Below are positions 9,097-38,240 of a DNA stretch of 64,000 nucleotides, piece by piece. Made by a program: the position numbers and the translations under genes. This stretch comes from Acetobacteraceae bacterium B3987. Lineage in GTDB: Bacteria > Pseudomonadota > Alphaproteobacteria > Acetobacterales > Acetobacteraceae. The notes under the pieces are model-generated. The model saw only the letters and a program-made list of their open reading frames with translations, searched no databases and was not told the origin of the DNA. Within the stretch, counting starts at the first letter, position 1; every line of letters starts with the position of its first letter. The stretch lies in the NCBI GenBank assembly GCA_026537415.1, contig JAFNMF010000029.1, positions 62,001-126,000 on the forward strand. The letters are read 5' to 3'.

Positions 9097-9861
9097 TCAT
9101 CGCCCCTGAAAAGACGCACGCGGCATCGGCATATAACTGCCAACAACCAGCGCAAGAATCGTCACATCCGGGCTTTCAGCGGCACTATGACAGACCGTAT
9201 CGTCTGGTGCAGGCAGAATAATCGGCGATTGGAACTCCGGCTCAGTACTCTGAGGCCAAAGAACCATCTGCCCGCTTTCCTTAATCTGAACGGCCTTTAT
9301 GGTTGCCTCGAAACTATCCGAGACTCTGGAACGCTGCATCGCAACGACATAGTCCCCATTACGAGGCAAACGTCCTAACTCGGCAAAATTGATGACAATC
9401 ACCACTGAACCATCCTGAAAGACCCGGTTCATGGACTGTCCCTTTACTGTCAACCCATACCGCTTCAGACCGGGATAGGAAGCATCATAAGGGATGGTAA
9501 TCTCGTACTGATCTGAAACAGGCCATTCTTGAGCTTCTTTCCAAACACCTGCCTGTACTTCCCCGCAAACCTGCACTTGCGATACGGGCAGGCTGACTGA
9601 TGCATTAGCCTGTTCTTCTGCCTTTTCATTGTCAGAGCTGCTAATTTCGGCCACCAACGTAGCAACCGGAACACCTAGCACCTGCGCTAGAGCTGCCAAC
9701 TTATCCGTACGAGGAAGGTGTTTACGTCTGCGCATGTCTCGCAAAAAATCGACCCCTACAGCGGGGTTGATCTCTCGCGCTTTCAGACAGGCCCGTCTAT
9801 CAGACAGGTTCCGAGCCTCCAGCAAGGAATCCAGACGCAGCAACAACGATTCAATAGACAT
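9097..9861 (-). CDS. Prophage repressor, helix-turn-helix plus S24 (LexA/CI-like) peptidase
   Basis: The 254-residue protein has an N-terminal DNA-binding region (about 1-70) and a C-terminal S24 domain. Seen: the cleavage site Ala104-Gly105 in EVQAGVW, the catalytic Ser143 in VKGQSMNRVF, and Lys189 in EATIKAVQ as the general base. Proteins of this kind cleave themselves when activated RecA is present, which would tie prophage induction to DNA damage. A candidate operator lies five bases before the start codon, suggesting autoregulation. It is divergent from the early gene at 10102 and co-directional with dinB. It could alternatively regulate dinB. Confidence 0.9.
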   Translation of the reverse strand: MSIESLLLRLDSLLEARNLSDRRACLKAREINPAVGVDFLRDMRRRKHLPRTDKLAALAQVLGVPVATLVAEISSSDNEKAEEQANASVSLPVSQVQVCGEVQAGVWKEAQEWPVSDQYEITIPYDASYPGLKRYGLTVKGQSMNRVFQDGSVVIVINFAELGRLPRNGDYVVAMQRSRVSDSFEATIKAVQIKESGQMVLWPQSTEPEFQSPIILPAPDDTVCHSAAESPDVTILALVVGSYMPMPRASFQGR

Positions 9862-11903: not shown

Positions 11904-13133
11904 ATGACCAAAAAACAGCTGACCATCATGACGCCCCGTGCTTTTGCGCCTCTTCTCCAACCTGCCCGTTATAAAGGCCTCTGGGGTGGACGTGGCTCCG
12001 GGAAATCGCATTTCTTTGCCGGCCTACTGATCGAACAGGCCACGCTGCGCCCCGGTCTACGGGCTGTCTGCATCCGGGAAATCCAGAAATCCCTGACCGT
12101 TTCCGTTCATCAGCTGCTACGGGACACCATTACCCGCCTGAATCTAGCCCATCTCTTCACGGTTCTGGATAAAGAAATCCGCACACCCGGCGGAGGTGTC
12201 ATCCTGTTTCAGGGGATGCAGGCCCATAACGCAGAAACCATCAAATCTCTGGAAGGCATGGACATCGCCTGGGTGGAAGAAGCTCAGTCCCTCTCGGCAA
12301 CATCCCTAAAGCTCCTACGCCCGACCATCCGCAAGCCTCATTCCGAAATATGGTTCAGTTGGAACCCTAACCATCCCTCCGACCCTGTAGATGCCTTTAT
12401 GCGGGGAACTAACACAGCAGATGACCCTTCCTTCATGACCATTTGCGCCAACTGGTCAGATAATCCGTGGTTTCCAGACGTTTTGAATCAGGAACGAAAG
12501 CGAGACCAGAAACTAAGGCCACAAGATTATGACCATATCTGGGAGGGTGGCTATCAACAGCATCATGACGCTCTCATCTTCCCCGACCGCATTACGGTTG
12601 AAGAGTTCTCTACTCCAGAAAACAGCCGCTTCTATTTTGGTGTGGACTGGGGCTTCTCACGGGACCCTACGGCCATCATACGCTGCTTCATCCATGATGA
12701 TGTCCTCCATATCGATCATGAAGCAGGAGGGACCCATATCCCACTAGACACCCTGCCCGCCCTGTTCGACAGGATACCCGCCATCCGCCGCTGGCCCATC
12801 CGGGCCGACAGTGCCCGACCGGAAACCATCAATTATCTGAAAACCCGCCATCATTTCCGCATCACAGCCGCACGCAAATGGCCCGGAAGCGTACAGGATG
12901 GGATTGAACGGCTCCGCTCATTCCGTGCCATCCGCATTCATTCACGCTGCATAGAGACAGCCCGTGAGTTCCGTCTCTACCGCTATAAATCCGACCCGCT
13001 CACAGGCGATATCCTCCCGCAGATAGAAGATGCCAACAATCATTACATTGATGCCCTGCGTTACGCGCTGGATGGCCTCATCACCAACCGTTCCTCCCTG
13101 CCGGACTTCTCACGCTTTGCTCCACCGACCTGA
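11904..13133 (+). CDS. Terminase large subunit (packaging ATPase and nuclease)
   Basis: The 409-residue protein has Walker A GGRGSGKS at residues 28-35, Walker B IAWVEE at 121-126, and the coupling region SWNPNHPSDPVDAF. The C-terminal RNase H-like nuclease shows the acidic residues in FGVDWGFSRDPTAI, RADSARPETI and DANNHYIDALRYAL. It belongs to the PBSX-type large terminases. It pumps DNA into the prohead and cuts concatemers. The intact motifs argue that packaging is still functional. Confidence 0.93.
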   Translation: MTKKQLTIMTPRAFAPLLQPARYKGLWGGRGSGKSHFFAGLLIEQATLRPGLRAVCIREIQKSLTVSVHQLLRDTITRLNLAHLFTVLDKEIRTPGGGVILFQGMQAHNAETIKSLEGMDIAWVEEAQSLSATSLKLLRPTIRKPHSEIWFSWNPNHPSDPVDAFMRGTNTADDPSFMTICANWSDNPWFPDVLNQERKRDQKLRPQDYDHIWEGGYQQHHDALIFPDRITVEEFSTPENSRFYFGVDWGFSRDPTAIIRCFIHDDVLHIDHEAGGTHIPLDTLPALFDRIPAIRRWPIRADSARPETINYLKTRHHFRITAARKWPGSVQDGIERLRSFRAIRIHSRCIETAREFRLYRYKSDPLTGDILPQIEDANNHYIDALRYALDGLITNRSSLPDFSRFAPPT

Positions 13134-13314: not shown

Positions 13315-14763
13315 ATGTCCGGTTTTTCTCTCTCACGCCTGTTTGAAGGGCAACACGCTGCGACCTCACGCCCTCGGCAAGAACCTACTGCTCCACGTCA
13401 CACCAGTTCAAACAAGAAGACCAACCCTCACTGGCTGACCCGCCTATGGCGGGCCGCCGCACACGACCCACCTGTTACTCACGACGGACCTGCCACAGCC
13501 TTCACTCCCTATCAACCACCGCCAGGTGTCGTGCCGGAAGGGTACGAACGCCCCGCCCCTCTCGGCATAGATTCCGCCTCCACGGGCATGGCTGATATCG
13601 CCAGCTGGGCCATGACGCAGACAGCCTCCCAGCCTTCATGGATGGCGGATGGTCTCGGTTTTCTGGGCTATCCGACTCTTGCCCAGATGGCCCAGCGGGC
13701 AGAATTCCGCAAGCCATGCGATGTCATCGCACGGGAAGCCACACGAGAATGGATCAGCCTCAGCACCCATAACCCCACAGGCCATACCCCCACATCCATA
13801 CCGTCCGATCCCAAAGCCCGCCTCCATGCGCTGGAAGTGGAAATGAAACGGCTGAATGTCCGTGAACTGCTCCACCAGCAGATTCTGGACAGTCTGCTCT
13901 ACGGCATTGGCCATATCTGGCTCAACATGGCCGATACACCCCGCACGACCTACGGGCAGACACTCCCGCTGCCCCTTACCTCCAACGGGGTCCGTAAAGG
14001 AACACTGGCCGGACTGAAAACCATTGAGCCGGTCTGGACCACACCCAACGCCTATAACGCTGACTCCCCCTTGCAGGATGACTATTACCGGCCCCGCAAC
14101 TGGTGGGTGCAGGGCTGCCTTGTCCATCGGGACAGGCTCATCAGCATGGTGCCTTATGGTGTCTCCGATCTTTTCAAGCCGTCATTCAATTTTGGTGGCA
14201 TGAGCCTGACACAGCAGCTGCGCCCTTATGTCCACAACTTCCTGCGGACACGCAACAGCATCAGCAACATCACGGCCAACTTCTCCAGACTTGTTCTAAA
14301 GACCGACATGGGCGGTCTCATGGCTACCGGCACGGGCGATGAGGCGGACCCGACCACCTCCATCACAGGCCGTGCCTCCTTCATGCAGAAGATTTCTGAA
14401 GGACAGGACATCATCGTGGCTGACCATCAGAATGAAGATGTGTCCGTCGTGGCAACCCCCCTGACAGGACTTGCCGACCTTCAGGCCCAGGCCATGGAGG
14501 CAATGGCTTCCATCCCTGGCATCCCGCTCGTCAAGCTCTTCGGCATCACACCGAACGGGCTGAATGCCTCTTCTGCCGGGGAAATACGGGTCTTCTACGA
14601 TGAAATCGCCGCCTTTCAGGAAGCACACATGCGGCCGGTCCTGAACCGCCTGCTCACCCTGATCCAGCTCAACCTCTGGGGTGAGACCGACCCTGCGCTG
14701 GAGATCACCTTCAATCCCCTCTGGCAGCAGACCACATCCCCACAGTCCTCCGAGGCCCCATGA
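13315..14763 (+). CDS. Phage portal protein, DUF1073 type
   Basis: The 482-residue protein fits the DUF1073 portal family: YPTLAQMAQRAEFRKPCDVIAREATREWISL, then LHQQILDSLLYGIGHIWLNM, LVHRDRLISMVPYGVSDLFKPSFNFGGMS and the C-terminal IPLVKLFGITPNGLNASSAGEIRVFYDEI. The portal forms the dodecameric ring at the head vertex through which DNA is packaged. The first 60 residues are a low-complexity basic region. It overlaps the next gene by four bases (ATGA), showing translational coupling. Confidence 0.88.
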   Translation: MSGFSLSRLFEGQHAATSRPRQEPTAPRHTSSNKKTNPHWLTRLWRAAAHDPPVTHDGPATAFTPYQPPPGVVPEGYERPAPLGIDSASTGMADIASWAMTQTASQPSWMADGLGFLGYPTLAQMAQRAEFRKPCDVIAREATREWISLSTHNPTGHTPTSIPSDPKARLHALEVEMKRLNVRELLHQQILDSLLYGIGHIWLNMADTPRTTYGQTLPLPLTSNGVRKGTLAGLKTIEPVWTTPNAYNADSPLQDDYYRPRNWWVQGCLVHRDRLISMVPYGVSDLFKPSFNFGGMSLTQQLRPYVHNFLRTRNSISNITANFSRLVLKTDMGGLMATGTGDEADPTTSITGRASFMQKISEGQDIIVADHQNEDVSVVATPLTGLADLQAQAMEAMASIPGIPLVKLFGITPNGLNASSAGEIRVFYDEIAAFQEAHMRPVLNRLLTLIQLNLWGETDPALEITFNPLWQQTTSPQSSEAP

Positions 14764-16290: not shown

Positions 16291-17316
16291 ATGCCCCATT
16301 CCATTTCCTCCGCCATGCTGAAACGTGACTTCGGCATTCATGGCGTGATCGACCACACCATGGCTTTTGACGGTGCCGTGACATCTCCCAATTCCGGCAT
16401 TCCGTCCATTTTCTCCACCTATACCGACCCACGCACCATCAGGGCACTCATCACGCCCATCCGGGCAGAAGCCATTTATGGTCAGGGCCAGAAAGGTGAC
16501 TGGCTGACGGATACGGCACAGTTCCCCTTTGTCGAACTCTCCGGCCAGACAGCCTCCTATGGCGATTATGACAGCTCCGGGGACAGTGACGTCAACGCCA
16601 ACTGGGTGCAGCGTCAGTCCTTCCACTTCCAGACATGGACACGCTGGGGTGAGCGGGAAGCCGAGCGCATGGGGACGGCCCGTCTGGACTGGGTTTCCCG
16701 CAAGAATGAAGCCTCCATCTCCATCCTGAACAAGACGAGCAACCGCATCAGCCTGTTCGGGATGGAAGGGCTTCAGCTGCGTGGTGCCCTCAATGACACG
16801 GCCCTCCCGCCAGCCATCCAGCCCACACCCAAGATTGCCCCTTCCGGAGCGGCAACAGGCAGCAGTGACTGGCTGAGCATTACTGACCCGGTGCAGGTCT
16901 ATGCCGATATCCTCAAGGCCTTCCAGCAGCTTTCCGAACAGATGGGTGGTAATGTCACGCTGGAAAGCCCGCTGACTCTCGTCATTCCGACAGAGCGGCA
17001 GCAGTGCCTGCTCTATACCAACCAGTTCCGCACGTCCCTGCGGGACCTGCTGCGGGAAAACCTGCCCAATCTGAAAATCGAAACCCTGCCGGAAGCAGGC
17101 AGCACGCTTTCTGGCGGCCTCAGCAAGGTCACTCAGATGCAGCTCTTCCTGCGGGAAGTGGACGGGCAGGAAAGTGTCACGACCGCCTTCACCGAGAAGC
17201 TGCGTGCCCATGCCGTGGAGCGTTACAGCTCCTATATCCGCCAGAAGAAGTCCCAGGGCACATGGGGGACCATCTGGTTCTACCCGGTGGCCTGCGTCAC
17301 CATGACAGGAATCTGA
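16291..17316 (+). CDS. Major capsid protein, DUF2184 family
   Basis: The 341-residue protein has the family features: SSAMLKRDFGIHGVIDHTMAFDG near the start, DTAQFPFVELSGQTASYGDYDSSG and WGEREAERMGTARLDWVSRKNEASISILN. The C-terminal region is beta-rich (YIRQKKSQGTWGTIWFYPVACVTMTGI). It forms the HK97-fold icosahedral shell. An AAGG sequence precedes ATG 16291. A 511-codon antisense frame overlies it and is taken as a codon-bias shadow. Confidence 0.88.
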   Translation: MPHSISSAMLKRDFGIHGVIDHTMAFDGAVTSPNSGIPSIFSTYTDPRTIRALITPIRAEAIYGQGQKGDWLTDTAQFPFVELSGQTASYGDYDSSGDSDVNANWVQRQSFHFQTWTRWGEREAERMGTARLDWVSRKNEASISILNKTSNRISLFGMEGLQLRGALNDTALPPAIQPTPKIAPSGAATGSSDWLSITDPVQVYADILKAFQQLSEQMGGNVTLESPLTLVIPTERQQCLLYTNQFRTSLRDLLRENLPNLKIETLPEAGSTLSGGLSKVTQMQLFLREVDGQESVTTAFTEKLRAHAVERYSSYIRQKKSQGTWGTIWFYPVACVTMTGI

Positions 17317-19596: not shown

Positions 19597-20766
19597 ATGG
19601 CCTCCCTGACCGGCACCATCCCCCTTTCCCAGACAGTTAGCATCAATCCCGTCACGCTTGGCACGGCGAACACCGTACCATTCATGAACGGACTGCTCAT
19701 CACGACCCCTTCCGATGCAGCAGCCCTGAATACGGGCCAGCTGAAACGGTATGAATCACTGGCAGATGTCACCAGAGATTTCCCTGCCAGCAGTCTGGAA
19801 GCCCGCATGGCCGCTGTCTATTTCACCAGCCATGAAGATGCGGCCCAGACACCGTCCACCCTGCTGATCCATATGGCCGATCCCACCCATCAAGCGGACC
19901 CGGCCAGCCTGATGGACCTCATCACAAGCCAGGATCAGGAGTTCACCGGTTTCACCACCACATGGGAACCGACACTGACACAGAAGCAGGCCTTCGCTAC
20001 ATGGGTGGCTGATCAGTCAGACCGCTACTGGTATGTTCCGTGGGACACGGATGAGCAGGCCCTCAACAGCCAGAACAGCACCAGCTTTGGCACTTGGCTG
20101 AAAAACCAGAACATCGACGGCACGACGCTGCTCTATCACGACCCTCTGGCCGCTGTCTTCTGTCTAGGGTGGATGGCCTCGCTTGATTTCAGCGCAACAT
20201 CCGGACGCACGACACTCTGCTTCCGCCGCAGCGGGCTGCTGATCCCCAGCGTGACCGATGCCACCACAGCCGCCACGCTCCGCAGCAACGGCTATAATTT
20301 CTACGGGGCCTATGCCAACGGGCTTGGCCGCTTCCAGTGGCTAGAAGACGGGCATGTTTCCGGGGCATTTCTCTGGGCGGACAGTTACATCAACCAGATA
20401 TGGCTCAATGCGTCCTTCCAGTCTGCCCTGACGACGCTTCTGCTCCAGTCCGGGCAGATTCCTTATGACAGCATCGGAGACGGGCTGATTTCAGCCAGCG
20501 TGCAGGACACCATCAATCAGGCCCTGCGCTTCGGGGCCATCCGTCCCGGCATCCAGCTCACCTCCCTTCAGAAGCAGCAGATCGACCAGAGTGCCGGAAC
20601 CACCATCAGCGACACGGTGCAGAGCCGTGGCTGGTACTTCCAGCCCAACGCCTCCACCGCAGCAGCGGACATCCGGGCGGCCCGGAAGAGTCCTCCCTGC
20701 CGCTTCTGGTACACGGATGGTCAGTCCGTCCAGTCCATTCATCTCTCATCCATCGAGGTCCAGTAA
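19597..20766 (+). CDS. Contractile tail sheath protein, DUF3383 family
   Basis: The 389-residue protein follows the DUF3383 pattern: SQTVSINPVTLGTANTVPFMNGLLIT, RYESLADVTRDFPASSLE, a central DYSxYW-like strand (SDRYWYVPWDT), and GRTTLCFRRSGLLIPSVTDATTAATLRSNGYNFYGAYA. The C-terminal part (PPCRFWYTDGQSVQSIHLSSIEVQ) supplies the strand that links neighbouring subunits. AAGGA ten bases upstream supports ATG 19597. It shows the virion has a contractile tail. Confidence 0.9.
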   Translation: MASLTGTIPLSQTVSINPVTLGTANTVPFMNGLLITTPSDAAALNTGQLKRYESLADVTRDFPASSLEARMAAVYFTSHEDAAQTPSTLLIHMADPTHQADPASLMDLITSQDQEFTGFTTTWEPTLTQKQAFATWVADQSDRYWYVPWDTDEQALNSQNSTSFGTWLKNQNIDGTTLLYHDPLAAVFCLGWMASLDFSATSGRTTLCFRRSGLLIPSVTDATTAATLRSNGYNFYGAYANGLGRFQWLEDGHVSGAFLWADSYINQIWLNASFQSALTTLLLQSGQIPYDSIGDGLISASVQDTINQALRFGAIRPGIQLTSLQKQQIDQSAGTTISDTVQSRGWYFQPNASTAAADIRAARKSPPCRFWYTDGQSVQSIHLSSIEVQ

Positions 20767-24907: not shown

Positions 24908-25561
24908 ATGCCCGCTACAGCCACACCGTATCTCCTACGCTCCAACACAGGCAAAAACAGCCTAAAAGATGCGCTAGATTCACTGATTGCCAGCCACATC
25001 AACCAGCTCGGCCCTTCTATGCTGGTTCAGGTAGAGGCCGTAACTGCCGATGCAGCATCCCTTACGGGCAAGGTCACTGTGCGCCCCATGGTACAGCAAC
25101 AGGATGCACTCTCCCGCTCCATGCCACACGACCTCATCCATAATGTGCCTTATCTACGCATACAGGGTGGAAGCTCAGCTCTCATCATCGACCCAAAACC
25201 GGGAGATATCGGTTTCATCATCATATCAGGGCGAGACCATACTCATGCCGTCACAACCCGTAAGCCTGCCCCGCCTGCCTCATTCCGGCAATTTTCCATG
25301 CAAGATTGCGTATATGTGGGAGGGTTCCTCAATAACGGCCCGGATCAGTTTATTCAGGCTACGGATCAAGGCTGGCGAATTGTGACACCGGGGGCCATCA
25401 CCATAGAAGCGCAAGGTCCCCTCACCCTGAAGGCCAGCCACATTGAAGCCAACTGCGACATCACCACGTCTGGCGATGTACGTGCAGATGGCATCTCATT
25501 AAAGCAGCACATACATGGCGGGGTTCAAGCTGGGGCTGGAACCAGCGCACCCCCGCAATGA
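24908..25561 (+). CDS. Membrane-puncturing tail spike (gpV/gp138 type)
   Basis: The 217-residue protein begins with a helix and an OB-like domain (SLTGKVTVRPMVQQQDALSRSMPHDLIHNVPYLRIQGGSSALIIDPKPGDIGFIIISGRD). A beta-helical needle follows (GAITIEAQGPLTLKASHIEANCDITTSGDVRADG). The tip has the HxH pair His201/His203 in KQHIHGG, which in spike proteins binds a metal ion at the apex. The gene is followed directly by the minus-strand block. A second copy of the tip coding sequence survives as a relic at 27818-27904. Confidence 0.9.
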   Translation: MPATATPYLLRSNTGKNSLKDALDSLIASHINQLGPSMLVQVEAVTADAASLTGKVTVRPMVQQQDALSRSMPHDLIHNVPYLRIQGGSSALIIDPKPGDIGFIIISGRDHTHAVTTRKPAPPASFRQFSMQDCVYVGGFLNNGPDQFIQATDQGWRIVTPGAITIEAQGPLTLKASHIEANCDITTSGDVRADGISLKQHIHGGVQAGAGTSAPPQ

Positions 25562-28346: not shown

Positions 28347-28697
28347 ATGAAAACCCTCTCCCTTACCGCCGACTGGGATCTCACAGTAGACAGCACGGGC
28401 AATCTCGTCGTGCTGAGCGACAAGGCCGCCATGCTTCAGGATGTGTGTTCCGCTGCCCGCACATGGCTGGGCGAGGTCATCTACGACACTGGGCAGGGCA
28501 TCCCCTACGACACGGACATTCTCCGCTCGAATGTGGACCTCTCCTTCTATGCCTCGGAGATCGAAGATGCGGCCATGTCCGTGCCGGGTATCGCAGCGGC
28601 GACCTGCCACCTCGCCAATCCCACCAAAGACCGCCAGCTGACCGGCGTCATTCTCGTAACCTTCAGCGATGGAAGCACGGACTATGCCCAGTTCTGA
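28347..28697 (+). CDS. Baseplate wedge protein, gp25/gpW-like
   Basis: AGAGGA seven bases before ATG 28347 sets the start, giving 116 residues; the frame itself is open from 28182. The pattern TADWDLTVDSTGNLVVLSDKAAMLQDVCSAARTWLGEVIYDTGQGIPYDTDIL is that of gp25-like wedge proteins. In related phages this gene directly follows the spike gene; here 2.8 kb of minus-strand genes separates them. It overlaps the next gene. Confidence 0.85.
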   Translation: MKTLSLTADWDLTVDSTGNLVVLSDKAAMLQDVCSAARTWLGEVIYDTGQGIPYDTDILRSNVDLSFYASEIEDAAMSVPGIAAATCHLANPTKDRQLTGVILVTFSDGSTDYAQF

Positions 28698-29910
28698 CGC
28701 CACAACCAATGTCCCGGCTCCCTCCCTTACCGAGGCAGGCTTTGTAGCCCCTTCGGAGCAAGACATCCTTTCCGGCGTTCTGGCCGACATGAACGCTGCC
28801 CTAGGTGGGGGTGCCAACACGGCCCTTTCCACACCACAGGGGCAGATCGCCCTTTCTGAAACTGCCATTCTGGGTGACTTTCTGGGGGCGATGATTGCCG
28901 TCTTCAATGGCGTGGACCCCGCCTCTTCCTCTGGCCGGATGCAAGATGCCATCGGGCGCATCTACTTCATGGAACGCAGGGCCGCCACAGCAACGACCGT
29001 CACGGTGCAGGCCAGCGTGAACGCTCCCGGCCAGACCATCGCAGCGGGAACAGTCGTAGCGCAGGGCAGTGATGGGAACCTCTACATAGCCCCGCAGGCC
29101 GTCACGCTTCCCCAAGCCAGCACGGCCAACTTTGACCTTGCCTGTCAGACAACGGGGGCCATCACATGCCCTGCCAACAGCCTGACGCTCTATCAGGCCG
29201 GGTTAGGGCTGGCCTCACTCGCCAATGCTGCCCCCGGAGCCACAGGGGCCGAAGCCGAAAACCGCACCGACTTTGAAGCACGGCGACAGGCTAGCGTGGC
29301 GGCCAACAGCATCGGGCAGAATGCTTCCCTCATGGGGGCTTTGCTGGAGCTGCCCGGTGTGACTGATGCCTTTGTGACGGACAACCCATCCCCAGCCGAT
29401 GTTGTGCAGCAGGGCGTCACCATCCCGGCATACAGCCAGTATGTCCTTGTCGAAGGGGGCGACCCAGAAGCCATCGGGCAGGCCATCCTTCATAAGAAGC
29501 CACCCGGCATCCCAACCACAGGGGCGCAGAGCATCACCGTGCAGGATACCAACCCCGTCTATGCCGGGAACCAGCCATCCTACAGCTTCAATTATGACCG
29601 ACCGACGCCTGTGGCGGTGCATGTGGTCATGGAGATTGCAGCCTTGGACACGGTGCCATCCAATGCGGCACAGCTCATCCAGCAGGCCATTGTCTCTTAC
29701 CTGACAACCGGGGAAAACCGCATCCGGCTAGGCAAGACCATCTATGCCTCCCGCTTATCCGCCGTGGTGGATGGTCTGGGTGATTGGGCCGAGGTGCTGA
29801 CACTGACCATCGGCACGGATAGCAGCGCAGGACAGAACCGGCTTACCTTGCCGATCAACCAGCTTCCCACCGTGACGCCCGATACAGTCAACGTGAAAGT
29901 GGTTCTATGA
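28669..29910 (+). CDS. Baseplate J/gp47-like wedge protein
   Basis: The 413-residue protein has the J-family layout. The N-terminal helix region includes TPQGQIALSETAILGDFLGAMIAVFNGVDPASSSGRMQDAIGRIYFMERR. The beta domain VNAPGQTIAAGTVVAQGSDGNLYIA and the block ENRTDFEARRQASVAANSIGQNASLMGALLELPGVTDAFVTDN follow. A start at ATG 28684 is also possible. It builds the wedges that hold the fibres. It overlaps the next gene by four bases. Confidence 0.88.
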   Translation: MEARTMPSSDATTNVPAPSLTEAGFVAPSEQDILSGVLADMNAALGGGANTALSTPQGQIALSETAILGDFLGAMIAVFNGVDPASSSGRMQDAIGRIYFMERRAATATTVTVQASVNAPGQTIAAGTVVAQGSDGNLYIAPQAVTLPQASTANFDLACQTTGAITCPANSLTLYQAGLGLASLANAAPGATGAEAENRTDFEARRQASVAANSIGQNASLMGALLELPGVTDAFVTDNPSPADVVQQGVTIPAYSQYVLVEGGDPEAIGQAILHKKPPGIPTTGAQSITVQDTNPVYAGNQPSYSFNYDRPTPVAVHVVMEIAALDTVPSNAAQLIQQAIVSYLTTGENRIRLGKTIYASRLSAVVDGLGDWAEVLTLTIGTDSSAGQNRLTLPINQLPTVTPDTVNVKVVL

Positions 29911-30503
29911 TCGACATTCGGGAAACCATCCTTGCCCAATATGCCAACAGCCCTGCCCTGACCGGCATTATCGAGCGGTTCAATGCAGCGGCGGACCCTC
30001 GCCGAATCATTGATCTATTTCTGCATGATGTCTGGAATCCCCTCACCGCTACCGGATGGGGTCTGGATGTATGGGGCCGGATTGTCGGGGCCGGGCGTGT
30101 CCTGAAGATCGACACCGTTGGTTATTGGGGTTTCTCACAGGGCTACCCTTCATCCCGCACCTTCGGGGAAGGCATCTGGTATTCCGGGCAGGCCGCTGCC
30201 AGCAACTACGCTTTGAGCGATGAAGCCTACCGGCAACTCATCTTCGCCAAGGCGGCGGCCAATATTTCCGATGGCTCCATCGCCGACATCAACCGGATTC
30301 TCATGATCCTGTTTGGCAATAAGGGCCGCTGCTACGTCGCTAATACGAGCGACCATACCATGATGATCGTCTTCTCCTTCCAGCCTACGCCAGTGGATGT
30401 TGCCCTCATCGCCTCCGGCGTTCTGCCTCGCCCTTCCGGGGTGAAGTATCGCTACGCCTTCATCCCTCCCACGGAAAATGATTTCGAGAATGACATCCTA
30501 TGA
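29907..30503 (+). CDS. DUF2612 baseplate protein
   Basis: The 198-residue protein shows the DUF2612 pattern: ILAQYANSPALTGIIERFNAAADPRRIIDLFLHDVWNPLTATGWGLDVWGRIVGAGR, then ALSDEAYRQLIFAKAAANISDGSIADINRILMILFGNKGRCYV. It fills the place of gpI, the wedge-tip protein to which the fibre attaches. Four-base overlaps on both sides tie it to J and the first fibre gene. Confidence 0.87.
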   Translation: MIDIRETILAQYANSPALTGIIERFNAAADPRRIIDLFLHDVWNPLTATGWGLDVWGRIVGAGRVLKIDTVGYWGFSQGYPSSRTFGEGIWYSGQAAASNYALSDEAYRQLIFAKAAANISDGSIADINRILMILFGNKGRCYVANTSDHTMMIVFSFQPTPVDVALIASGVLPRPSGVKYRYAFIPPTENDFENDIL

Positions 30504-31456
30504 AGAGTTCTGATCTCCCCACAAAGATCGCCGTCCCCTTCGCCCAGAATGCAGGCTTGTCCTACCGGCGGGACGTTCCCCTGCAAAGCAGCGATGCCGG
30601 GGCAGCCTCTTTCATGCTGGGCTTCCCGCCGCTGACCTTCCAGCCCACAGGGGCGGGCGGCTCGCCCGTGGATGGGCGGGACATGAATGGCATCCTGTAT
30701 GCGCTTTCCTCCATTGCCCGGTCATGGTGTGCAGGCACTACACTGACCTTCGATCAGAGTTTCGCTCAGGCCGTTGGCGGCTACCCTTTGGGGGCCGTCC
30801 TGCGTTCTGCCACAGATCCAACCATTCTTCTCATCAGCCAGCGGGACGCCAACCAGACAGACCCGGCAGATGATGCAGAAGAAGCCCTCTGGAAGCCCAT
30901 CGGGGCCGGGACCCTTACCTCTGTGGCGCAGTCCCTCGCTGGCAAGGTAAGCCGGACAGGCGACACCATGACGGGCAGCCTGTTCATGACAGGCACCTAC
31001 AGCCTCAATGGCGGCCTTGCGACCGTTCCCATTGGGGCACAGATGGACCAGACACAGATCTATCTCCAGCTGGCAAAAGGGACCGATAATACGATCTCGG
31101 GTACCCTGACCTTCCGGGACAGCAGCGGCGGCTACCATGACGTTCTGACCGTCACCCCTCGGGGCAACATCCTGTCCGTAAGGGGAAACCCCTTCCTTGA
31201 AGTCGGCTCGAACAGCGACCAACCCATGCGGATGGAGGCTTTCACAGCCATTGCCGATAGCGGGCAGCGTGTGACCTTTCCGAAAGGGTTTTCTGGAACA
31301 CCCGTTAGCATCATCGTCAATGCGCTTGAAGCTAACTGGAGCTGTGCGGCGGCTGAAGGCACATGGGCCGCTGATGGCTTCACCATAACCAGCTATGCCA
31401 CCAACACAGCAGGCAGACCCCAAAAGATTTCCGTCATGGCCGTGGGGCCTGTGTGA
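30500..31456 (+). CDS. Tail fibre protein with lectin-like C-terminal tip
   Basis: The 318-residue protein begins with a baseplate-attachment region (DLPTKIAVPFAQNAGLSYRRDVPLQSSDAGAASFMLGFPPLTFQPTGAGGSPVDGRDMNGILYALSSIARSW), common at the N-terminus of such fibres. A shaft with SRTGDTMTGSLFMTG repeats follows. The tip MRMEAFTAIADSGQRVTFPKGFSGTPVSIIVNALEAN is the same kind as in the genes at 31464 and 35465. It likely binds the cell surface first. Confidence 0.8.
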   Translation: MKSSDLPTKIAVPFAQNAGLSYRRDVPLQSSDAGAASFMLGFPPLTFQPTGAGGSPVDGRDMNGILYALSSIARSWCAGTTLTFDQSFAQAVGGYPLGAVLRSATDPTILLISQRDANQTDPADDAEEALWKPIGAGTLTSVAQSLAGKVSRTGDTMTGSLFMTGTYSLNGGLATVPIGAQMDQTQIYLQLAKGTDNTISGTLTFRDSSGGYHDVLTVTPRGNILSVRGNPFLEVGSNSDQPMRMEAFTAIADSGQRVTFPKGFSGTPVSIIVNALEANWSCAAAEGTWAADGFTITSYATNTAGRPQKISVMAVGPV

Positions 31457-31463
31457 GGACAAG

Positions 31464-33470
31464 ATGACAGCCCAAAACACAACGCCTAATTGGCGTTCCT
31501 ACACCACCACCGGCAACCCGGTTGATATTGTTCCGTCCCCTACCGTGGCGAAGGCCATCGGACAAAAGGTTGATGCTCAGAACGGGCAGGCCGAAGGGTT
31601 GGCTCTGGATGGCACCACGACCCTCTCCGGCCTGACAGTGGACCGGGTATTAGGCAGGTTTTCGACCCTGCCTGTAACGGATTTCGGCGTTGTGGATGAC
31701 CCGGACGGCCAGCATGTCGACGACAATACAGCCGCCTACCAGACCGCCCTTGATGCCTGTGCGGGGCAGCATCAGCTTCTGCATCCGGCGGGTCTTTCCG
31801 TTGTGCTGCACAATATCCAGATCACCAAATCGGACACGATCCTGATTCTGGATGGCAGCCTCACCCTTGCCCCCAACAGCAACACGAACTGTCTGGACAT
31901 TTACGCCCCCGGCAAAACGCTTGAGCGCATCTCCATCACGGGGCGGGGTGTCATTGATGGCAATGGCTCCAACCAGCAGGGGGGCCAGACAGCCGTAGCG
32001 GGCGGCATCTGTGCCAACACGCTCAGCCATACAGGCAACACACCGGATGATCCGGCTTCCCCGACACTCATCGACAGCCTTCTGATCTCAGGTATTACGA
32101 TCAGAGACACCTTCAACTGGCCGATTTCGCTAGGTCATATCAGCAACAGCCTTGTTTCCGGGGTAACGCTACTGAATGGCGGGAACTCCCCACAATTCAT
32201 CTGGTCCGCTGATAATTGCTGGTTCAATGATAGCGTATCGGCTGGCCATACGGATGGCGGCTTTGTCTTCTACATGGGATGCCGAAAATGCGGGGCATCC
32301 GGCAATAGTGTCTATGGCAACCATGACGGGATCGGGGTTTATTCCGACGCCTCCAGCCAGCCGGCTAATGATGGAATCATCATTTCCGGCAACCACGTCC
32401 ACGATAACCGAGATAACGGCATCGGCATTACCACAATGGTGCAGACTTCCGCCGCCATCACGCAGCGAAACATTCTGGTTACCGGCAATACCCTGACCAA
32501 CAACAACACGGGTGGCCGCAATGGTGGTGGGTCCATCGGCATTGTAGCTGCCTATGGGGTCAGGGTTTCAGGGAATAGGGTTACGCAGGACGGGTCAACC
32601 ACAACCAGCGGGCAGCCCGTTTACTCGCTCTATGTGTCGGATAGCTGCCAGAACATCGTTATAACGGATAACAGCTTCGAAAATGTAGGAAGCCAGACGA
32701 ACCCCGGAACGGCCATTTACATTAACAAGGCATCTGGCTGTTCCATCCAGAACAACACGATTGCCGATAGTGGTGGGGCTTCTGGTGTAACACGGGCAGG
32801 CATTGGTGGTATCCTCGGGCCACGCTGCATTATGGGTGGGAACATCGCATTAACGCCACTGAGCGGCTCTCTTCTATCCCTGCAATGGCCTGATGATGCG
32901 GTATTTCTGGGACAGCCGGACGGCAATGGCGGGCAGAGAAATAACCTGTCCCTCCTCACCCAGCTTACAGTGGGTGGCGAATACACCTACAACAACCAGA
33001 CCCTTAGTCAGCCGGTTGCAGCTTCAGCATCTGACGGGCTGTTTTCCTTTCAGGCAGTGCGAGGCAGCACGGACGCCCTGACAGGGGGCCGCTTCGTGCT
33101 TCAGACCAAGGCGGGCCTGTACCGGCAGTTTGTCATGTCCGGCGATGGGGCACTGTCAAGCCCGGTTGGCACATTGCTGGCAGGCGACAGAGGGGCCAAC
33201 GGGCTTCCGCTCTATGCCCAGCGGTTCACAGTCCGGGCGGGGCACGGGGACTTTGTGGCCTTCCCACGGGCCTTTGCTACGAACGACGTGTCAGTGTTCG
33301 TGGCTCCGTCCTTTGATGGAACCAACATGCAGCTTGCCGGTTCCTCGACGGTCTCACCCCCTACTCAGTCTGGATTCACGCTTGGGAAATATTGGGTTGG
33401 CGGCGGCGGGGCTAATGTAGCACCGGCTGGGAAAGTAACCATCCTGGCCATAGGCGAGATCTCACCCTGA
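31464..33470 (+). CDS. Tailspike with right-handed parallel beta-helix
   Basis: GAGG five bases before ATG 31464 gives 668 residues. After an N-terminal head, VTDFGVVDDPDGQHVDDNTAAYQTALDAC opens a pectin-lyase-like beta-helix. Its coils include VIDGNGSNQQGG, ISGITIRDTFNWPISLGHISNSLVSGVTLLNGG, ISGNHVHDNRDNGIGI and VTGNTLTNNNTGG. The C-terminal tip (QRFTVRAGHGDFVAFPRAFATNDVSVFVAPSFDGTN) matches that of the 35465 gene. Such spikes usually cut or bind surface polysaccharide. The catalytic residues are not identifiable by eye. Confidence 0.85.
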   Translation: MTAQNTTPNWRSYTTTGNPVDIVPSPTVAKAIGQKVDAQNGQAEGLALDGTTTLSGLTVDRVLGRFSTLPVTDFGVVDDPDGQHVDDNTAAYQTALDACAGQHQLLHPAGLSVVLHNIQITKSDTILILDGSLTLAPNSNTNCLDIYAPGKTLERISITGRGVIDGNGSNQQGGQTAVAGGICANTLSHTGNTPDDPASPTLIDSLLISGITIRDTFNWPISLGHISNSLVSGVTLLNGGNSPQFIWSADNCWFNDSVSAGHTDGGFVFYMGCRKCGASGNSVYGNHDGIGVYSDASSQPANDGIIISGNHVHDNRDNGIGITTMVQTSAAITQRNILVTGNTLTNNNTGGRNGGGSIGIVAAYGVRVSGNRVTQDGSTTTSGQPVYSLYVSDSCQNIVITDNSFENVGSQTNPGTAIYINKASGCSIQNNTIADSGGASGVTRAGIGGILGPRCIMGGNIALTPLSGSLLSLQWPDDAVFLGQPDGNGGQRNNLSLLTQLTVGGEYTYNNQTLSQPVAASASDGLFSFQAVRGSTDALTGGRFVLQTKAGLYRQFVMSGDGALSSPVGTLLAGDRGANGLPLYAQRFTVRAGHGDFVAFPRAFATNDVSVFVAPSFDGTNMQLAGSSTVSPPTQSGFTLGKYWVGGGGANVAPAGKVTILAIGEISP

Positions 33471-33493
33471 CATTATCTGGCTCTCTAACCTTG

Positions 33494-33523
33494 AAACCCT
33501 CCCCCGATCGGGAGGGTTTTTTA
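33494..33523 (+). terminator. Rho-independent terminator after the tailspike
   Basis: A 10-bp perfect stem (33494-33503 with 33510-33519), 6-base loop and T run. It separates the tailspike from the GH32 gene group. Confidence 0.88.
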
Positions 33524-33576
33524 TGGCCACAACCCTCCTCCGTGAGGGGCAAACCACTCCTCACAGGGGAAGGCTG

Positions 33577-33882
33577 ATGCCTTCCATTCTCCAACAATAC
33601 CGAGAGATTTTTGTGACTGACACCATACCAACCGCTCTGGCCTCGCTGAACGGGGCCGGAGGCGTGCGGGCTGGGGACCTTGTGCAGGTTTCTGCACTGA
33701 ATGCCCCCCTGCCCGACAGTGAGGTTACGGGCATCGTGCGTGTGGACGTGTTCGAAACTGACTGGAGCGACTACGGTCGCGCCTGCCAGATGATGCGTCT
33801 ATCCGCTCTGTCCCAGACATTACGCAACTGGGCACGCGAGGCACAACGTGCGTCCCATCAAGCTGCAGGAGTACCATCATGA
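33577..33882 (+). CDS. Small phage protein upstream of the GH32 gene
   Basis: The frame is open from 33523, but a GGGGA sequence before ATG 33577 favours a 101-residue product starting MPSILQQYREIF. The N-terminal half is compact (TALASLNGAGGVRAGDLVQVSALNAPLPDSEVTGIVRVDVFETDWSDYG); the C-terminal half is a basic amphipathic helix. No family recognised. It overlaps the GH32 gene by four bases, so the two are coupled and it may be a chaperone or an adaptor for that enzyme; this is inference. Confidence 0.65.
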   Translation: MPSILQQYREIFVTDTIPTALASLNGAGGVRAGDLVQVSALNAPLPDSEVTGIVRVDVFETDWSDYGRACQMMRLSALSQTLRNWAREAQRASHQAAGVPS

Positions 33883-35456
33883 CGCCTGCACAAGTCCTTA
33901 GTGAAGCCAACACATTAGAGCGTGTCCTGCCTACAACACGCTATTACCCGCTCCGCCATATGGCGCCCTACCCGGTGAAGGGAGGAACCAGCTGGCAGAA
34001 TGATGGGCAAAATTTTGTATTTGACCCTTATTCTGGCCTATGGCGCACCTGGGCCCTAGGCAATCCTGATTGGAAGCCAGCTGACGGGTTTCCACAAACA
34101 AGCTGGATTGAATATGCCGGCCCGGCCCTCGACCAGATGGTACCCTTAGGGGTCCGGCTGGACAGAGCAGACTATTCAGCTGACATTTATACATCTGGTT
34201 CTGTCTTTGTGGATTGGCACAACAAGCTAGGGCGAGGCCACGGAGCCGCTTGGTACTTTGTTGCTACCCTCTCTGCCGAGCATTTACAGGCACTCATGCT
34301 GCTAACGGCTCCAGCCCTTGGCACAACTCCACATGTACAAGGTATCGTCATTCCCAATGATGCCGTTCCGCCAGACCAGCGAGGGCCGGGACTGGATCTG
34401 CGTGATTGCCGGGTATTCTGGGACGATGCACATGACCAGCTAGTGCTCTCGGCCACCTGCGGGGCAAAATTCATATTTTTCGCCTCAACGGACGGCTTCA
34501 ACTGGCGGTATCTCTCCACATTGGCCGGCCCCGGCCCACTAGTGGAATGTCCGAACATGCTGCAAGTGCCATTGCACGATGCTAACGGTTCACCCACCGG
34601 GAAAACACGCTGGGTGATTCTGGGTGCCGTGCAGGGGACCTGGTCAGGTGCCACGGACAGTTTTGAATGTTGTGCTGTCTGGGTCGGTAACTGGGATGGT
34701 ACTACCTTCACCCCGGATGCAGGATATCCATTGCCTGTTGATTACGGGCCGGACAGCTATGCCAGCACGACCGGCACGGACCATCTTGGCCGACCCTTCA
34801 TGGGATATTGGCTGGGCAACTGGGAATATTGCACCAGGGTAATGCCTTTTGAAGGCTTCCAGAACATTCAGGGCCTACCACGCCAGTGCTGGTTACAGCC
34901 TGATTCCTCCGGCGTTGTGCGGCTCTTTTCTGCACCTCTGGAGACCGATCTGGATGCTTATAGCACCAGCTACGCAGGCAGTCACCAGACTCTGGACAGC
35001 ACAACGGCGTATGCATGGCCAAACCAGGCCATCCCAACTGGGAAATGCGCCCGGGTGGATATCACTCTGGAGCGGATTGGCGAAAGCTGGCCAGAAACCA
35101 TCACGTTGCAACTGCGTGCAGGAACGGTCAACGGACAGTCCTTCCATACCGACTTAACCGTAAATGGAACGACGGGAACGGTCATTCTGGACCGCTCCAA
35201 AGCTGGCTCTGAAGGACCTGCTGCACCTGTGCCTGCCTCTTGGACACGCCCTTACACCATGCCAGCCAGTCTGGGCGTAACGAGCGGCAAAACCATTACC
35301 TTGAGCGTGCTGCTGGATAGCTGCTCGGTCGAGGCATTCATCAATGGGGGACTAGGCAGCATGGCTGCGCTGATCTTCCCCCCTGACACCTGCCAGGGTC
35401 TCTCCCTGACAGCGAGCGGAACGGTTTCTGCCACCGCAACAATCCATCATTATTGA
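33879..35456 (+). CDS. GH32 family fructan hydrolase (levanase/invertase type), tail-associated candidate
   Basis: The 525-residue protein has the three GH32 catalytic motifs in order and with normal spacing. They are WQND with nucleophile Asp42, RDC with the transition-state Asp176, and ECP with acid/base Glu223. SGSVFVDW around residue 106 matches the family block SGSAVVD. A C-terminal beta-sandwich (LSVLLDSCSVEAFINGG) is also typical of GH32. There is no signal peptide. GH32 enzymes cleave beta-fructoside bonds in sucrose, levan or inulin. The gene lies between the tailspike and a fibre gene, so it is probably a virion or lysis-released depolymerase. The exact substrate is unknown. Confidence 0.9.
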   Translation: MTPAQVLSEANTLERVLPTTRYYPLRHMAPYPVKGGTSWQNDGQNFVFDPYSGLWRTWALGNPDWKPADGFPQTSWIEYAGPALDQMVPLGVRLDRADYSADIYTSGSVFVDWHNKLGRGHGAAWYFVATLSAEHLQALMLLTAPALGTTPHVQGIVIPNDAVPPDQRGPGLDLRDCRVFWDDAHDQLVLSATCGAKFIFFASTDGFNWRYLSTLAGPGPLVECPNMLQVPLHDANGSPTGKTRWVILGAVQGTWSGATDSFECCAVWVGNWDGTTFTPDAGYPLPVDYGPDSYASTTGTDHLGRPFMGYWLGNWEYCTRVMPFEGFQNIQGLPRQCWLQPDSSGVVRLFSAPLETDLDAYSTSYAGSHQTLDSTTAYAWPNQAIPTGKCARVDITLERIGESWPETITLQLRAGTVNGQSFHTDLTVNGTTGTVILDRSKAGSEGPAAPVPASWTRPYTMPASLGVTSGKTITLSVLLDSCSVEAFINGGLGSMAALIFPPDTCQGLSLTASGTVSATATIHHY

Positions 35457-35464
35457 GGTTTATT

Positions 35465-36115
35465 ATGAGCGACTTTACGCCTGGCCTTCCCACCAAGAAA
35501 ACACTCGTCTTTGTGGATAATAACGGCAACCGTTTTTCTACAGACATTGAAGTCAATCCCGGTGCCCCCGGCGCAGGAGGGACTGGTGGTGGTATCTCCC
35601 CGAATGGCGGAACAATCTCCGGAAACCTGGTCCTGGACGCTGGCAACGATGCCACGCCCTGGAGCGTTACCCCGCAAAACATCCTGCGCGTCGGCGACCA
35701 CGAGGCGCATATTTCCGGCCAGATGACTGGCGAAGGAGACCTGCAGGTCCTGCTCGGGGTGGACAATTACGCCCCATGGGTATTCCGCCCGGGCAAGCAT
35801 CTCATTTTCACCCCGACCGGGAATACTGTGGTTGAGGCGAACGATTCCGCCACAGCCCCGGTCCTGATCCAGCGTTTCAGTGTTACGGCAAAGAACGGGG
35901 ATTATGTAGCATTCCCCAAAGCCTTCAGCAGCGACACCGTGCGAGTGATTGTGCCCTCCTATTTTGACGGCACGAGCTTTGTTCTCGGTGGGACAGACCG
36001 CCAGAAACCGACTGACCGCAACGGCTTTACGCTAAGCAAATGGAGTGCTGGCCCGAACCCGGGCTGGAACAATTACGCCGATACAATGGACATTATTGCC
36101 ATCGGAGCTGGCTAA
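35465..36115 (+). CDS. Tail fibre tip protein
   Basis: GAGG seven bases before ATG 35465 sets a 216-residue product. The N-terminus (DFTPGLPTKKTLVFVDNNGNRFSTDIEVNPGAPGAGGTGGG) ends in a Gly-rich linker. The C-terminal domain (PVLIQRFSVTAKNGDYVAFPKAFSSDTVRVIVPSYFDGTS) is closely like the tip of the tailspike at 33470. It may bind receptor or sugar and may work with the GH32 enzyme encoded nine bases upstream. Confidence 0.75.
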   Translation: MSDFTPGLPTKKTLVFVDNNGNRFSTDIEVNPGAPGAGGTGGGISPNGGTISGNLVLDAGNDATPWSVTPQNILRVGDHEAHISGQMTGEGDLQVLLGVDNYAPWVFRPGKHLIFTPTGNTVVEANDSATAPVLIQRFSVTAKNGDYVAFPKAFSSDTVRVIVPSYFDGTSFVLGGTDRQKPTDRNGFTLSKWSAGPNPGWNNYADTMDIIAIGAG

Positions 36116-36144
36116 TCTATCAGTGCCTCAACCGAGGCAGTGGC

Positions 36145-36172
36145 TGGCCCTGCCACTGAACAGGCAGGGCCA
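36145..36172 (+). terminator. Hairpin after the fibre tip gene, weak terminator candidate
   Basis: A perfect 10-bp stem (36145-36154 with 36163-36172) and 8-base loop. It is followed by TATCTCTT rather than a T run, so termination may be partial. Confidence 0.5.
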
Positions 36173-36205
36173 TATCTCTTACCCCTCTATGATAAAGAAC
36201 CCATC

Positions 36206-36439
36206 ATGAACCTGTACTTCGCAGGCGGTATCCTGCTCTCCGTACTGGGGTTCCTCGGCGGTCTGGTCTGGTTCTCCAACCAGGCCGGACGCCATAGTGC
36301 CGAGGTCACCACCAGCGAGCGGGATACTGCCAACGCCAATGCCACGGCCTGCGCCACTCACGCCATGCTGGAGGCCCGCACAAACGGCGTGCGTAATATT
36401 GCTGGGCTGACGGGAGAGCTGGACCGAGGGACGTTCTGA
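36206..36439 (+). CDS. Inner-membrane spanin (Rz-like) candidate
   Basis: The 77-residue product starts MNLYFAGGILLSVLGFLGGLVWFSN, one N-terminal membrane anchor. A polar region with charged helix (RHSAEVTTSERDTANANATACATHAMLEARTNG) follows. This is short for Rz, but the next gene starts within its stop codon and encodes a clear Rz1-like lipoprotein, as in spanin pairs. The weak ribosome binding site and the short periplasmic part leave some doubt. Confidence 0.6.
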   Translation: MNLYFAGGILLSVLGFLGGLVWFSNQAGRHSAEVTTSERDTANANATACATHAMLEARTNGVRNIAGLTGELDRGTF

Positions 36440-36678
36440 TGCACGGCCTCTCCTCCCCCACGCTAGCCTTTGCCGGGGTAATGCTGGCTGCTCTGCTTTC
36501 CGGCTGCTCCTCTGCCACACTTAGACCCGTTTGCCCACCGCTGGTAACATATAACCGACAAGAGCAAGCCGCTCTCGCTGGAGAAATACGAACCCATCCC
36601 GACCTTACCGAGATGCCGCTCTTCCTCGCCGATTACGCTAATGAACGCAACGAGTTGCGAGCCGCCTGTAAACCATGA
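36439..36678 (+). CDS. Outer-membrane spanin lipoprotein (Rz1-like)
   Basis: The 79-residue product has a lipobox LLSGC with acylated Cys23. It continues CPPLVTYNRQEQAALAGEI, the signature of Rz1/LysC-type o-spanins. It would fuse outer and inner membranes at the last step of lysis. It overlaps the preceding gene by one base and is followed by a terminator. Rz and Rz1 here are end-to-end rather than nested. Confidence 0.82.
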   Translation: MHGLSSPTLAFAGVMLAALLSGCSSATLRPVCPPLVTYNRQEQAALAGEIRTHPDLTEMPLFLADYANERNELRAACKP

Positions 36679-36700
36679 CCCTCACCAAAGCCTGACCACT

Positions 36701-36725
36701 AACCGCCCTTTGAGGCGGTTTTTTT
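36701..36725 (+). terminator. Rho-independent terminator after the spanin genes
   Basis: A 7-bp GC-rich stem (36701-36707 with 36714-36720), 6-base loop and a run of seven T. Confidence 0.85.
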
Positions 36726-36741
36726 GTGACCAGAGAATTCA

Positions 36742-37044
36742 ATGACTGACCAATTCCCAACCCCTCCGCCCTTCACACCACTGAATGAGCGCATTGCAGC
36801 GTTGGAGGCCGTGCAGGCCCGTCATGATGACGACATCACGAAGCTTTCCGACAAAATCGACAATCTCGCCCGAGAGCAACGTGCTGGATTGGAGGCATTA
36901 AGCGATCAGATTGCTTCAACCATCTCCACCCGCTCCCAACTCATTACCGCTGCCATTACCGGCAGTGCAGCTTTTGGGGGCGGTGTCGCAGTGGGGCTGT
37001 ATCAACTCCTCCACACACTTAACCCCCATCTATTCGGAAGCTGA
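36742..37044 (+). CDS. Coiled-coil membrane protein, lysis region
   Basis: The 100-residue protein has a proline-rich start (TDQFPTPPPFTP) and a coiled coil (LNERIAALEAVQARHDDDITKLSDKIDNLAREQRAGLEALSDQIAS). One hydrophobic span follows near the C-terminus (LITAAITGSAAFGGGVAVGLYQLL). This plan is common beside endolysin genes and may be a holin accessory or a hemolysin-XhlA-like protein. It ends one base before the endolysin start. Function is inferred from position only. Confidence 0.65.
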   Translation: MTDQFPTPPPFTPLNERIAALEAVQARHDDDITKLSDKIDNLAREQRAGLEALSDQIASTISTRSQLITAAITGSAAFGGGVAVGLYQLLHTLNPHLFGS

Positions 37045-37045
37045 T

Positions 37046-37468
37046 ATGACACCCCGAGGCATCCGCAATAACAATCCGGGGAACTTGAACTTCGTCCATC
37101 AACCCTGCGCTGTTCTGGAACCCGGACCCAATGCCCGCTTTGCCCGTTTCTCCACGCCGGAAGACGGGCTTGCCGCCCTGCGTGACCAGCTTTGCCGCTA
37201 CATCCTAAAGGATGGCATCGACACGGTAATGAGCATCATCAGCAAATGGGCACCACCAACCGAGAATGATACTGCCGCCTATGTCCGGGGCGTAGCGCAC
37301 TCTCTGAATGTCGAACCGGATGCACAACTAGGCCAGCCTACACCCCATCTCATTGGCGGCCTGATGAACGCCATCATCCGCTTTGAGAACGGCCAGAACC
37401 CCTATGGGAGGCTAGTTGAACAGGTGGCGGCATCTTCTCCCTCATCTCACCATGATGCGACAGCCTGA
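37046..37468 (+). CDS. Endolysin, PRD1 P5-like/lysozyme-like
   Basis: GGAAG six bases before ATG 37046 sets a 140-residue product; the frame is open from 36911. It begins TPRGIRNNNPGNL, then ARFARFSTPEDGLAALRDQLCRYI, IISKWAPPTENDTAAYVRGVA and IIRFENGQNPY. This is the phage family often annotated as structural protein or lysozyme-like, with a soluble-lytic fold. It degrades peptidoglycan at lysis. It is encoded between the coiled-coil membrane gene and the holin candidate. Confidence 0.85.
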   Translation: MTPRGIRNNNPGNLNFVHQPCAVLEPGPNARFARFSTPEDGLAALRDQLCRYILKDGIDTVMSIISKWAPPTENDTAAYVRGVAHSLNVEPDAQLGQPTPHLIGGLMNAIIRFENGQNPYGRLVEQVAASSPSSHHDATA

Positions 37469-37551
37469 CCCCCTACCAGCCTCATACCTTACGATTCACC
37501 TTACTATGGCCGCCTTACTGGTGGCTCTTTCCACATCTGGAGATACCATTC

Positions 37552-37782
37552 ATGGACATCACCTCTTTCCTCACGTCTCTCCCAACCAGCATCCAGACCT
37601 ACGTCGCTTCTGTCATCATTATCTGCAATCTGATGACCGTCTTTATTCGCCCACCTGCTGCCGGGTCACGGTGGATACTACCCTATCGGCTCATCTCCAT
37701 ACTGGCACTCAATATCGGCTGGGCCAAAAACCATCTCCAGCCGGGACACCCAGAAAATGAGACATCCCATACATCTTCCTGA
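37552..37782 (+). CDS. Holin candidate, last prophage gene
   Basis: The 76-residue product has two hydrophobic stretches: [19 protein letters not shown] and [13 protein letters not shown], ending NHLQPGHP. This is the pattern of small membrane proteins encoded beside endolysins in acetic acid bacterial prophages. GGAG precedes ATG 37552. It could be the holin that controls lysis timing; the call rests on size and place. Confidence 0.65.
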
Positions 37783-37889
37783 ACAGAAAATTGCCGCCTT
37801 TACCCCGGGCGGCCCTCTCCCGTACCTTCTTATTTTTTACAATCTCCTGCTATAGCCAGGCTGAACTTACCATATCAGGTCATCCCGCC

Positions 37890-38231: not shown

Positions 38232-38240
38232 CCCGCCCTA

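Follow-up and report, generated by a model that had tools for sequence, protein, structure and literature searches.

The GH32 gene in the tail fibre and spike region of this window (the whole stretch of 64,000 nucleotides analysed here) probably encodes a fructan-cutting enzyme that a contractile phage-type particle carries on its tail; it would be anchored by an adaptor and would clear fructan around the target. Judged from the sequences compared, this reading was given a probability of about 0.7. A tail-borne role is likely because cassettes of adaptor, GH32 and tip genes recur, and because other acetobacterial phages encode fusions of GH32 with a gp48-like baseplate protein. The anchor is well supported in relatives; the window adaptor is linked to it only by a pairwise match. 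For the window GH32, we infer presence in the particle, docking via the adaptor and an N-terminal helix, activity and substrate. The small adaptor encoded just upstream would probably anchor the enzyme to the fibre end, with the tip protein beside it. At cell contact, the propeller would trim a beta-fructofuranosyl polymer, most probably of levan type, that surrounds the target, and the trimmed coat would let spike and fibre reach the cell surface.

By domains, triad and fold, the product is a complete predicted enzyme. The N-terminal five-bladed propeller domain and the C-terminal sandwich are both present (Pfam, fold), and the catalytic acids were assigned to D42, D176 and E223 in an alignment of 42 sequences; the intact GH32 described in the earlier note was thereby confirmed, as was its lack of a visible signal peptide. 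Residues adjoining the triad are altered (NDG, RDC). Comparison with levanase and inulinase structures, which the note had proposed, gave a matching two-domain fold. The top fold matches were endo-inulinase, InuAMN8 and LFT, with a mixture of endo-inulinase, LFT and exo enzymes among the matches, and the top sequence match was the endolevanase LevB1 (9h8i). In BFVD, a 911-aa protein without a name and two giant-virus GH32s matched best. The two-domain fold and the catalytic acids are shared with GH32 endolevanase, levan fructotransferase and inulinase (9h8i LevB1, 4ffh LFT, 3sc7, BT1760), from which the window GH32 differs by the absence of a visible signal peptide, by a low-confidence N-terminal helical extension and by its location in a tail cluster with adaptor and tip genes. 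The helix (residues 3-16, pLDDT about 56-71 in the predicted structure) is a possible docking helix. Its separation from the GH32 fold is not clear-cut, because 23 of the 50 VIA rows start before residue 18. The structure alignment comprised the window and 21 of 39 loci, duplicates, overlong and near-identical rows being left out by choice.

Three GH32 genes are present in the window genome, a Bombella genome of 2.04 Mb: the window copy, a copy in a second phage-type cluster (contig C21) and a copy on contig C28. The last (L003) carries a TAT-type leader by eye and fits the extracellular GH32 invertase that Haerer et al. (2022, PMC9147383) described in every Bombella they analysed. An origin of the window GH32 as an ordinary duplicate of the Bombella invertase was ruled out by the tree and by an identity of about 30%.

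Features of the tail cluster in the window (positions in the window; E-values from Pfam or PHROG as indicated)
Feature	Position	Strand	Basis and remarks
Repressor with S24 peptidase domain	9097..9861	-	Left cluster end, adjoins dinB
Terminase large subunit	11904..13133	+	PHROG 3717, 5.3e-54
Portal	13315..14763	+	PHROG 146, 1.1e-71
Major head protein	16291..17316	+	PHROG 264, 1.2e-56
Contractile tail sheath	19597..20766	+	PHROG 205, 7.6e-70
GpV-like protein with apex motif	24908..25561	+	Pfam Apex, 2.3e-7
Baseplate J-like protein	28669..29910	+	Pfam, 2.2e-14
DUF2612 structural protein	29907..30503	+	Pfam, 4.1e-47; PHROG 587, 5.1e-64
Tail fibre protein, 318 aa	30500..31456	+	PHROG 12796, 5.4e-37
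Beta-helix tail spike, 691 aa	31395..33470	+	Pfam Beta_helix, 9.1e-9; PHROG tail spike, 2.5e-4
Terminator-like hairpin followed by T run	33493..33520 (33489-33533)	+	-18.7 kcal/mol, z -3.64; between spike and cassette
Adaptor gene	33577..33882	+	101 aa from ATG after AGGGGA; 119 aa if start at 33523
GH32 enzyme	33879..35456	+	525 aa, triad D42/D176/E223; no signal peptide visible
Tip-like protein	35465..36115	+	Start TTG 35453 or ATG 35465
Lysis genes	36140..37782	+	Endolysin PHROG 873, 5.1e-43; spanin- and holin-like labels by eye

The cluster extends from 9097 to about 37782 and contains a repressor, terminase subunits, portal, protease, major head protein, sheath, baseplate, fibres and lysis genes. 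The position of the GH32 between a beta-helix spike and a fibre-tip gene, as previously described, was upheld for the spike by Pfam and PHROG. The tip was recognised by eye, from a C-terminus that looks like the ends of spike and fibre proteins, and gave no significant family match (Pfam, PHROG). Adaptor and GH32 genes overlap by 4 bases (ATGA). The hairpin upstream of them is not among the terminators found by pattern scan, and the loci of C21, B. intestini and L027 contain similar stretches of 30-45 bases; it is possibly a shared module-boundary element. No cassette promoter was found; the single sigma-70-like site in 28000-38300 lies 3' of the cassette (shuffles, 4.8). Elsewhere in the cluster, between gpV and gp25, five small proteins are encoded antisense (25566-28432, minus strand), most with signal-like N-termini by eye. 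They are partly conserved in other Bombella and gave no PHROG match; one had a weak match to LprI (lysozyme inhibitor; E 0.0016, below cut-off).

A GH32 match of any kind was obtained in 14 of 60 relatives, and a match to the cassette alignment (E 1e-10) in 38 of 249 sampled family genomes, of which the strongest loci were inspected. The order adaptor, GH32, tip was found in six other phage-type loci: in the second cluster of the window genome (L024), in B. intestini (L022) and B. favorum (L023), on an IMG/VR contig (L027) and in genomes G134 (L114) and G087 (L115). The second cluster of the window genome is itself a phage tail cluster, with a GH32 of its own (14179-15807 of L024) that is 30% identical to the window GH32. 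In L115 the GH32 (6609-8233, G087:C271) is split by a frameshift, and the adaptor segment is still recognisable. Adaptor and GH32 genes overlapped by 4 bases in five of six pairs measured and by 8 bases in the other. Baseplate or other virion proteins were recognised in L024, L023, L027 and L114; phage evidence for L115 is weaker. A tail sheath is present in L024, whereas a scan of six L023 proteins revealed none; the cassette therefore sits on unlike backbones.

The adaptors are divided at a boundary. L024 and L023 share 89% of the last 55 aa of the adaptor and 72% of the GH32, and their N-terminal adaptor parts (30% over 54 forced positions) have no real sequence similarity. The pattern is opposite among L022, L024 and L027, where the N-terminal adaptor part is 83-93% identical, the last 55 aa 33-44% and the GH32 50-55%. 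The boundary thus parts a backbone segment from an enzyme-linked segment, which is what a docking segment should show. Its profile matched 5 of the 249 family genomes, each time directly 5' of a cassette GH32; four of these are rows of the profile itself, and G087 is the sole independent match. The profile did not match the window adaptor, although a match was expected. By pairwise blastp (1e-7), the window adaptor is related to an adaptor in G103 (L116), and the GH32 downstream of the latter is the most similar found outside Bombella (48%). Adaptor, GH32 and tip are all present in L116; no clear phage body was seen in the stretch read, and two neighbouring genes had no PHROG match. In B. mellum (L021), GH32 and tip occur without adaptor among non-phage genes (purF/autotransporter and fumC by eye).

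A second arrangement was found downstream of Mu-type baseplate genes in L118, L131 (G163), L130 (G087) and L132 (IMG/VR), where GH32 is part of a fusion protein of 667-668 aa. The baseplate neighbours are gp44/45/46/47-like in L118, gp44/45/46-like in L132 and gp47-like in L130. In these three loci, an N-terminal Mu gp48-like region (E 1.5e-6 to 4.6e-5; 28.6, 28.2 and 23.7 bits, under the Pfam gathering score of 37.4) is followed by GH32N (E 6e-50 to 4e-52); the fusion in L131 was assigned by eye from its matching ORF pattern. In a tree of 42 rows, selected out of 97 distinct GH32 ORFs together with the fusion loci and L136 but without the frameshifted L115, cassette GH32s form a group of their own (100/100), together with two proteins of genus g54 and apart from other GH32s. 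The fusion GH32s group with cellular enzymes of genus g78 (97/89), outside the cassette group (100/100 split), so that GH32 recruitment seems to have occurred at least twice. All three catalytic acids are kept in the eight cassette and three fusion proteins of the tree. The dN/dS ratio was 0.067 for the fusion GH32s of L118 and L130 (dS 0.63) and 0.14 for the cassette GH32s of L023 and L024 (dS 1.57), wider pairs being near saturation. The two g54 GH32s (L117 5023-6555, L121 4488-6014) lie among housekeeping genes; in L117 the adjoining gene matches Phage_lysozyme2, and in the g54 copy of G149 the nucleophile Asp is replaced by Glu.

Virus and plasmid collections were searched as well. A single-sequence search of IMG/VR gave no match, nor did a search with the G103 protein. 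An alignment search gave three loci, among which the GH32s of L025 and L026 are identical to those of L023 and L022, respectively. With a wider alignment, the same three contigs and a metagenomic contig (L136) were obtained; the N-terminus of the L136 GH32 is leader-like, and the protein falls among cellular enzymes in the tree. Among plasmids, 86 records matched. Faecal INPHARED records named 'Bacteriophage sp.' were rejected as phage relatives after inspection of three of eight (L126-L128; MT836746, MT836884, MT837307). Their GH32s have leader-like N-termini and stand beside SusC/SusD, sugar transport and fructokinase-like genes by eye; the loci look like fructan-use loci of Bacteroidetes rather than phage and are therefore no evidence for phage GH32.

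Several observations count against tail mounting: the hairpin separates the spike from the cassette, the docking profile misses the window adaptor, the gp48 matches score under the Pfam gathering threshold and the fusions are on another branch, the N-terminal helix is of low confidence, the L021 and g54 GH32s lie among non-phage genes, and Bombella is without GH68. The enzyme might instead be a soluble levanase of the kind of LevP from Bacillus phage phiNIT1: produced late, kept out of the particle and freed at lysis, it would thin a fructan matrix and help progeny to spread. Bacillus phage GH32s likewise have no signal peptide (PMC4595243), LevP is described as no tail spike and its companion PghP as non-structural in the passages concerned (PMC6966330), and the hairpin could make the cassette an expression unit of its own. 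However, in neither of the two Bacillus phages inspected do annotated tail genes flank the GH32, whereas acetobacterial GH32 has adaptor and tip partners in seven phage-type loci and is preceded by a gp48-like region in four loci. That a soluble enzyme sets progeny free, an option which the earlier note had also considered, fits less well than tail mounting, and this alternative is rather unlikely.

It is quite improbable that the propeller acts as a binding head, with lectin-like receptor binding and little or no turnover. The changed residues beside the triad (NDG, RDC) and the g54 relative with Glu for the nucleophile Asp would agree with such a role, but retention of the three acids in 8/8 cassette and 3/3 fusion proteins and the low dN/dS in pairs with usable dS speak against it. 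Lysogenic conversion, in which the resident element would give its host extra use of sucrose or fructan, suits the sugar-rich hives that Bombella inhabits; an exported GH32 invertase has been reported in all Bombella analysed (PMC9147383). It is very improbable here: the window GH32 has no visible signal peptide, in contrast to the TAT-type leader of the cellular copy, overlaps the adaptor gene and belongs to a separate tree group. A tail-borne, adaptor-anchored enzyme thus remains the preferred reading.

The substrate was approached through GH68 levansucrase, which was found in none of 11 Bombella genomes by a search that detected the Bacillus subtilis control. A levan capsule of Bombella's own making is therefore unlikely. 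GH68 was present in four of ten further acetobacterial genomes, namely the four of genus g78, and the other six were without it; g78 includes hosts of three fusion loci. Levansucrase-producing isolates have been reported from honey (PMC9068672). The target may be the fructan of neighbours or, equally, another fructose-bearing glycan. The earlier proposal that the phage cuts a levan capsule during adsorption is accordingly retained as to a likely tail-borne role, from the recurrent cassettes and baseplate fusions, and weakened as to the levan capsule.

The cluster in which the cassette lies was compared across Bombella. A terminase match was obtained in all 11 genomes, with only partial copies at 65% in G007, and the repressor end adjoins dinB in ten of the 11, G007 being the exception. 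On the right side, all six long stretches inspected (L077-L082) continue into one common set of host genes. Variation of the site between strains or species, which is expected of an ordinary temperate prophage, was not found. Nearly all core genes are near full length in the six other genomes compared (left side), and the major head protein is 88-97% identical. For repressor, terminase, portal, head and sheath, dN/dS was 0.025-0.134 where computable, some at saturated dS; the core particle genes in six other Bombella are under purifying selection. Eight stop flags were noted in the compared elements. Three were located, within the last few codons; five were without location (u22816 in G002, gp25 in G008, spanin- and endolysin-like in G009, small exported protein in G004), so that certain species may have disrupted copies. 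Element dS resembles that of the flanking parE and dinB in G001 and G002 and is lower in G008 and G004 for several head genes; some exchange between species is therefore likely as well. When the ORFs of 9097-37782, very short ones excepted, were scanned with Pfam and PHROG, no integrase, transposase or replication gene was recognised.

Adaptor and GH32 were absent from the six elements with fibre end read (G001, G002, G003 right side, G004, G008 and G009), and few parts of the element are less conserved than this end. These observations fit an old particle cluster that has been kept and passed on largely vertically, whose fibre end varies and which received the GH32 cassette in this species. 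Of the prophage tail cluster previously described, the contractile-tail cluster was thus borne out; its nature as an ordinary prophage is made doubtful by the fixed site and largely vertical inheritance. Vertical inheritance at a fixed site together with functional constraint on particle genes, as in gene transfer agents or PBSX-like elements, makes 9097-37782 a candidate domesticated particle. PBSX-like defective phages and gene transfer agents share the genus-wide fixed site, the constrained head, tail and lysis genes, the repressor and the lack of a recognised integrase with the window cluster. A wider scenario is put forward tentatively, as possible rather than probable: the genus would keep a domesticated, repressor-controlled (perhaps SOS-inducible) contractile particle whose swappable fibre-end slot here holds a propeller against the fructan coats of neighbours, and acetobacterial phages would have recruited tail GH32 at least twice, via a docking adaptor and via baseplate fusion. 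The fructan target is placed on other bacteria (levan-making neighbours) because Bombella makes no GH68 levan.

Phage GH32 as such is already known from Bacillus; what appears to be new here is a tail-cluster GH32 in phage-type loci of acetic acid bacteria. The levanase of a Bacillus phage that the earlier note had mentioned is indeed published: Maaroufi and Levesque (2015, PMC4595243) reported GH32 in phages of B. subtilis. Those of SP10, phiNIT1 (LevP) and SPG24 are likewise phage-encoded, have no signal peptide and keep the triad, but are about 23-25% identical to the window GH32, fall outside the cassette tree group and, in two phages inspected, are not beside annotated tail genes. LevP and Goe9 GH32s are separated from the cassette group by a 100/100 split, so the window GH32 is not of the LevP sequence group. 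In Goe9 (L076 14051-18488), phosphodiester glycosidase, pectin-lyase-like and chaperone-domain genes were seen 3' of the levanase; the latter two, about 5-8 kb downstream, are possibly spike-type. The SP10 levanase is listed among virion-associated or adsorption depolymerases in two reviews (PMC5380687, PMC10975011), in passages that contain no virion data, and this prior listing counts against full novelty. A separate GH25 glycoside hydrolase has been described as a virion part that binds the baseplate (PMC4870245). In the open-access literature, no print report was found of GH32 in phages of acetic acid bacteria or of GH32 shown on a tail.

Known capsule tailspikes are for the most part trimeric beta-helices, and the phage depolymerases known so far are chiefly beta-helix tailspikes directed at capsules. 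With virion-borne depolymerases (tailspikes and branched receptor-binding protein systems), the loci described here share the location at the spike or fibre end, modular swapping and the division into anchor and enzyme segments; unlike in capsule tailspikes, a GH32 propeller would be carried on a separate small adaptor. If this is true, the use of a GH32 propeller on a reusable docking module by phages of several acetobacterial genera would broaden the range of phage surface enzymes, and it would suggest that fructan matrices in sugar-rich insect habitats are a genuine obstacle to phages. Whether phage-derived particles of bee-associated Bombella act in gene transfer or warfare becomes testable with a particle cluster that occurs throughout the genus.
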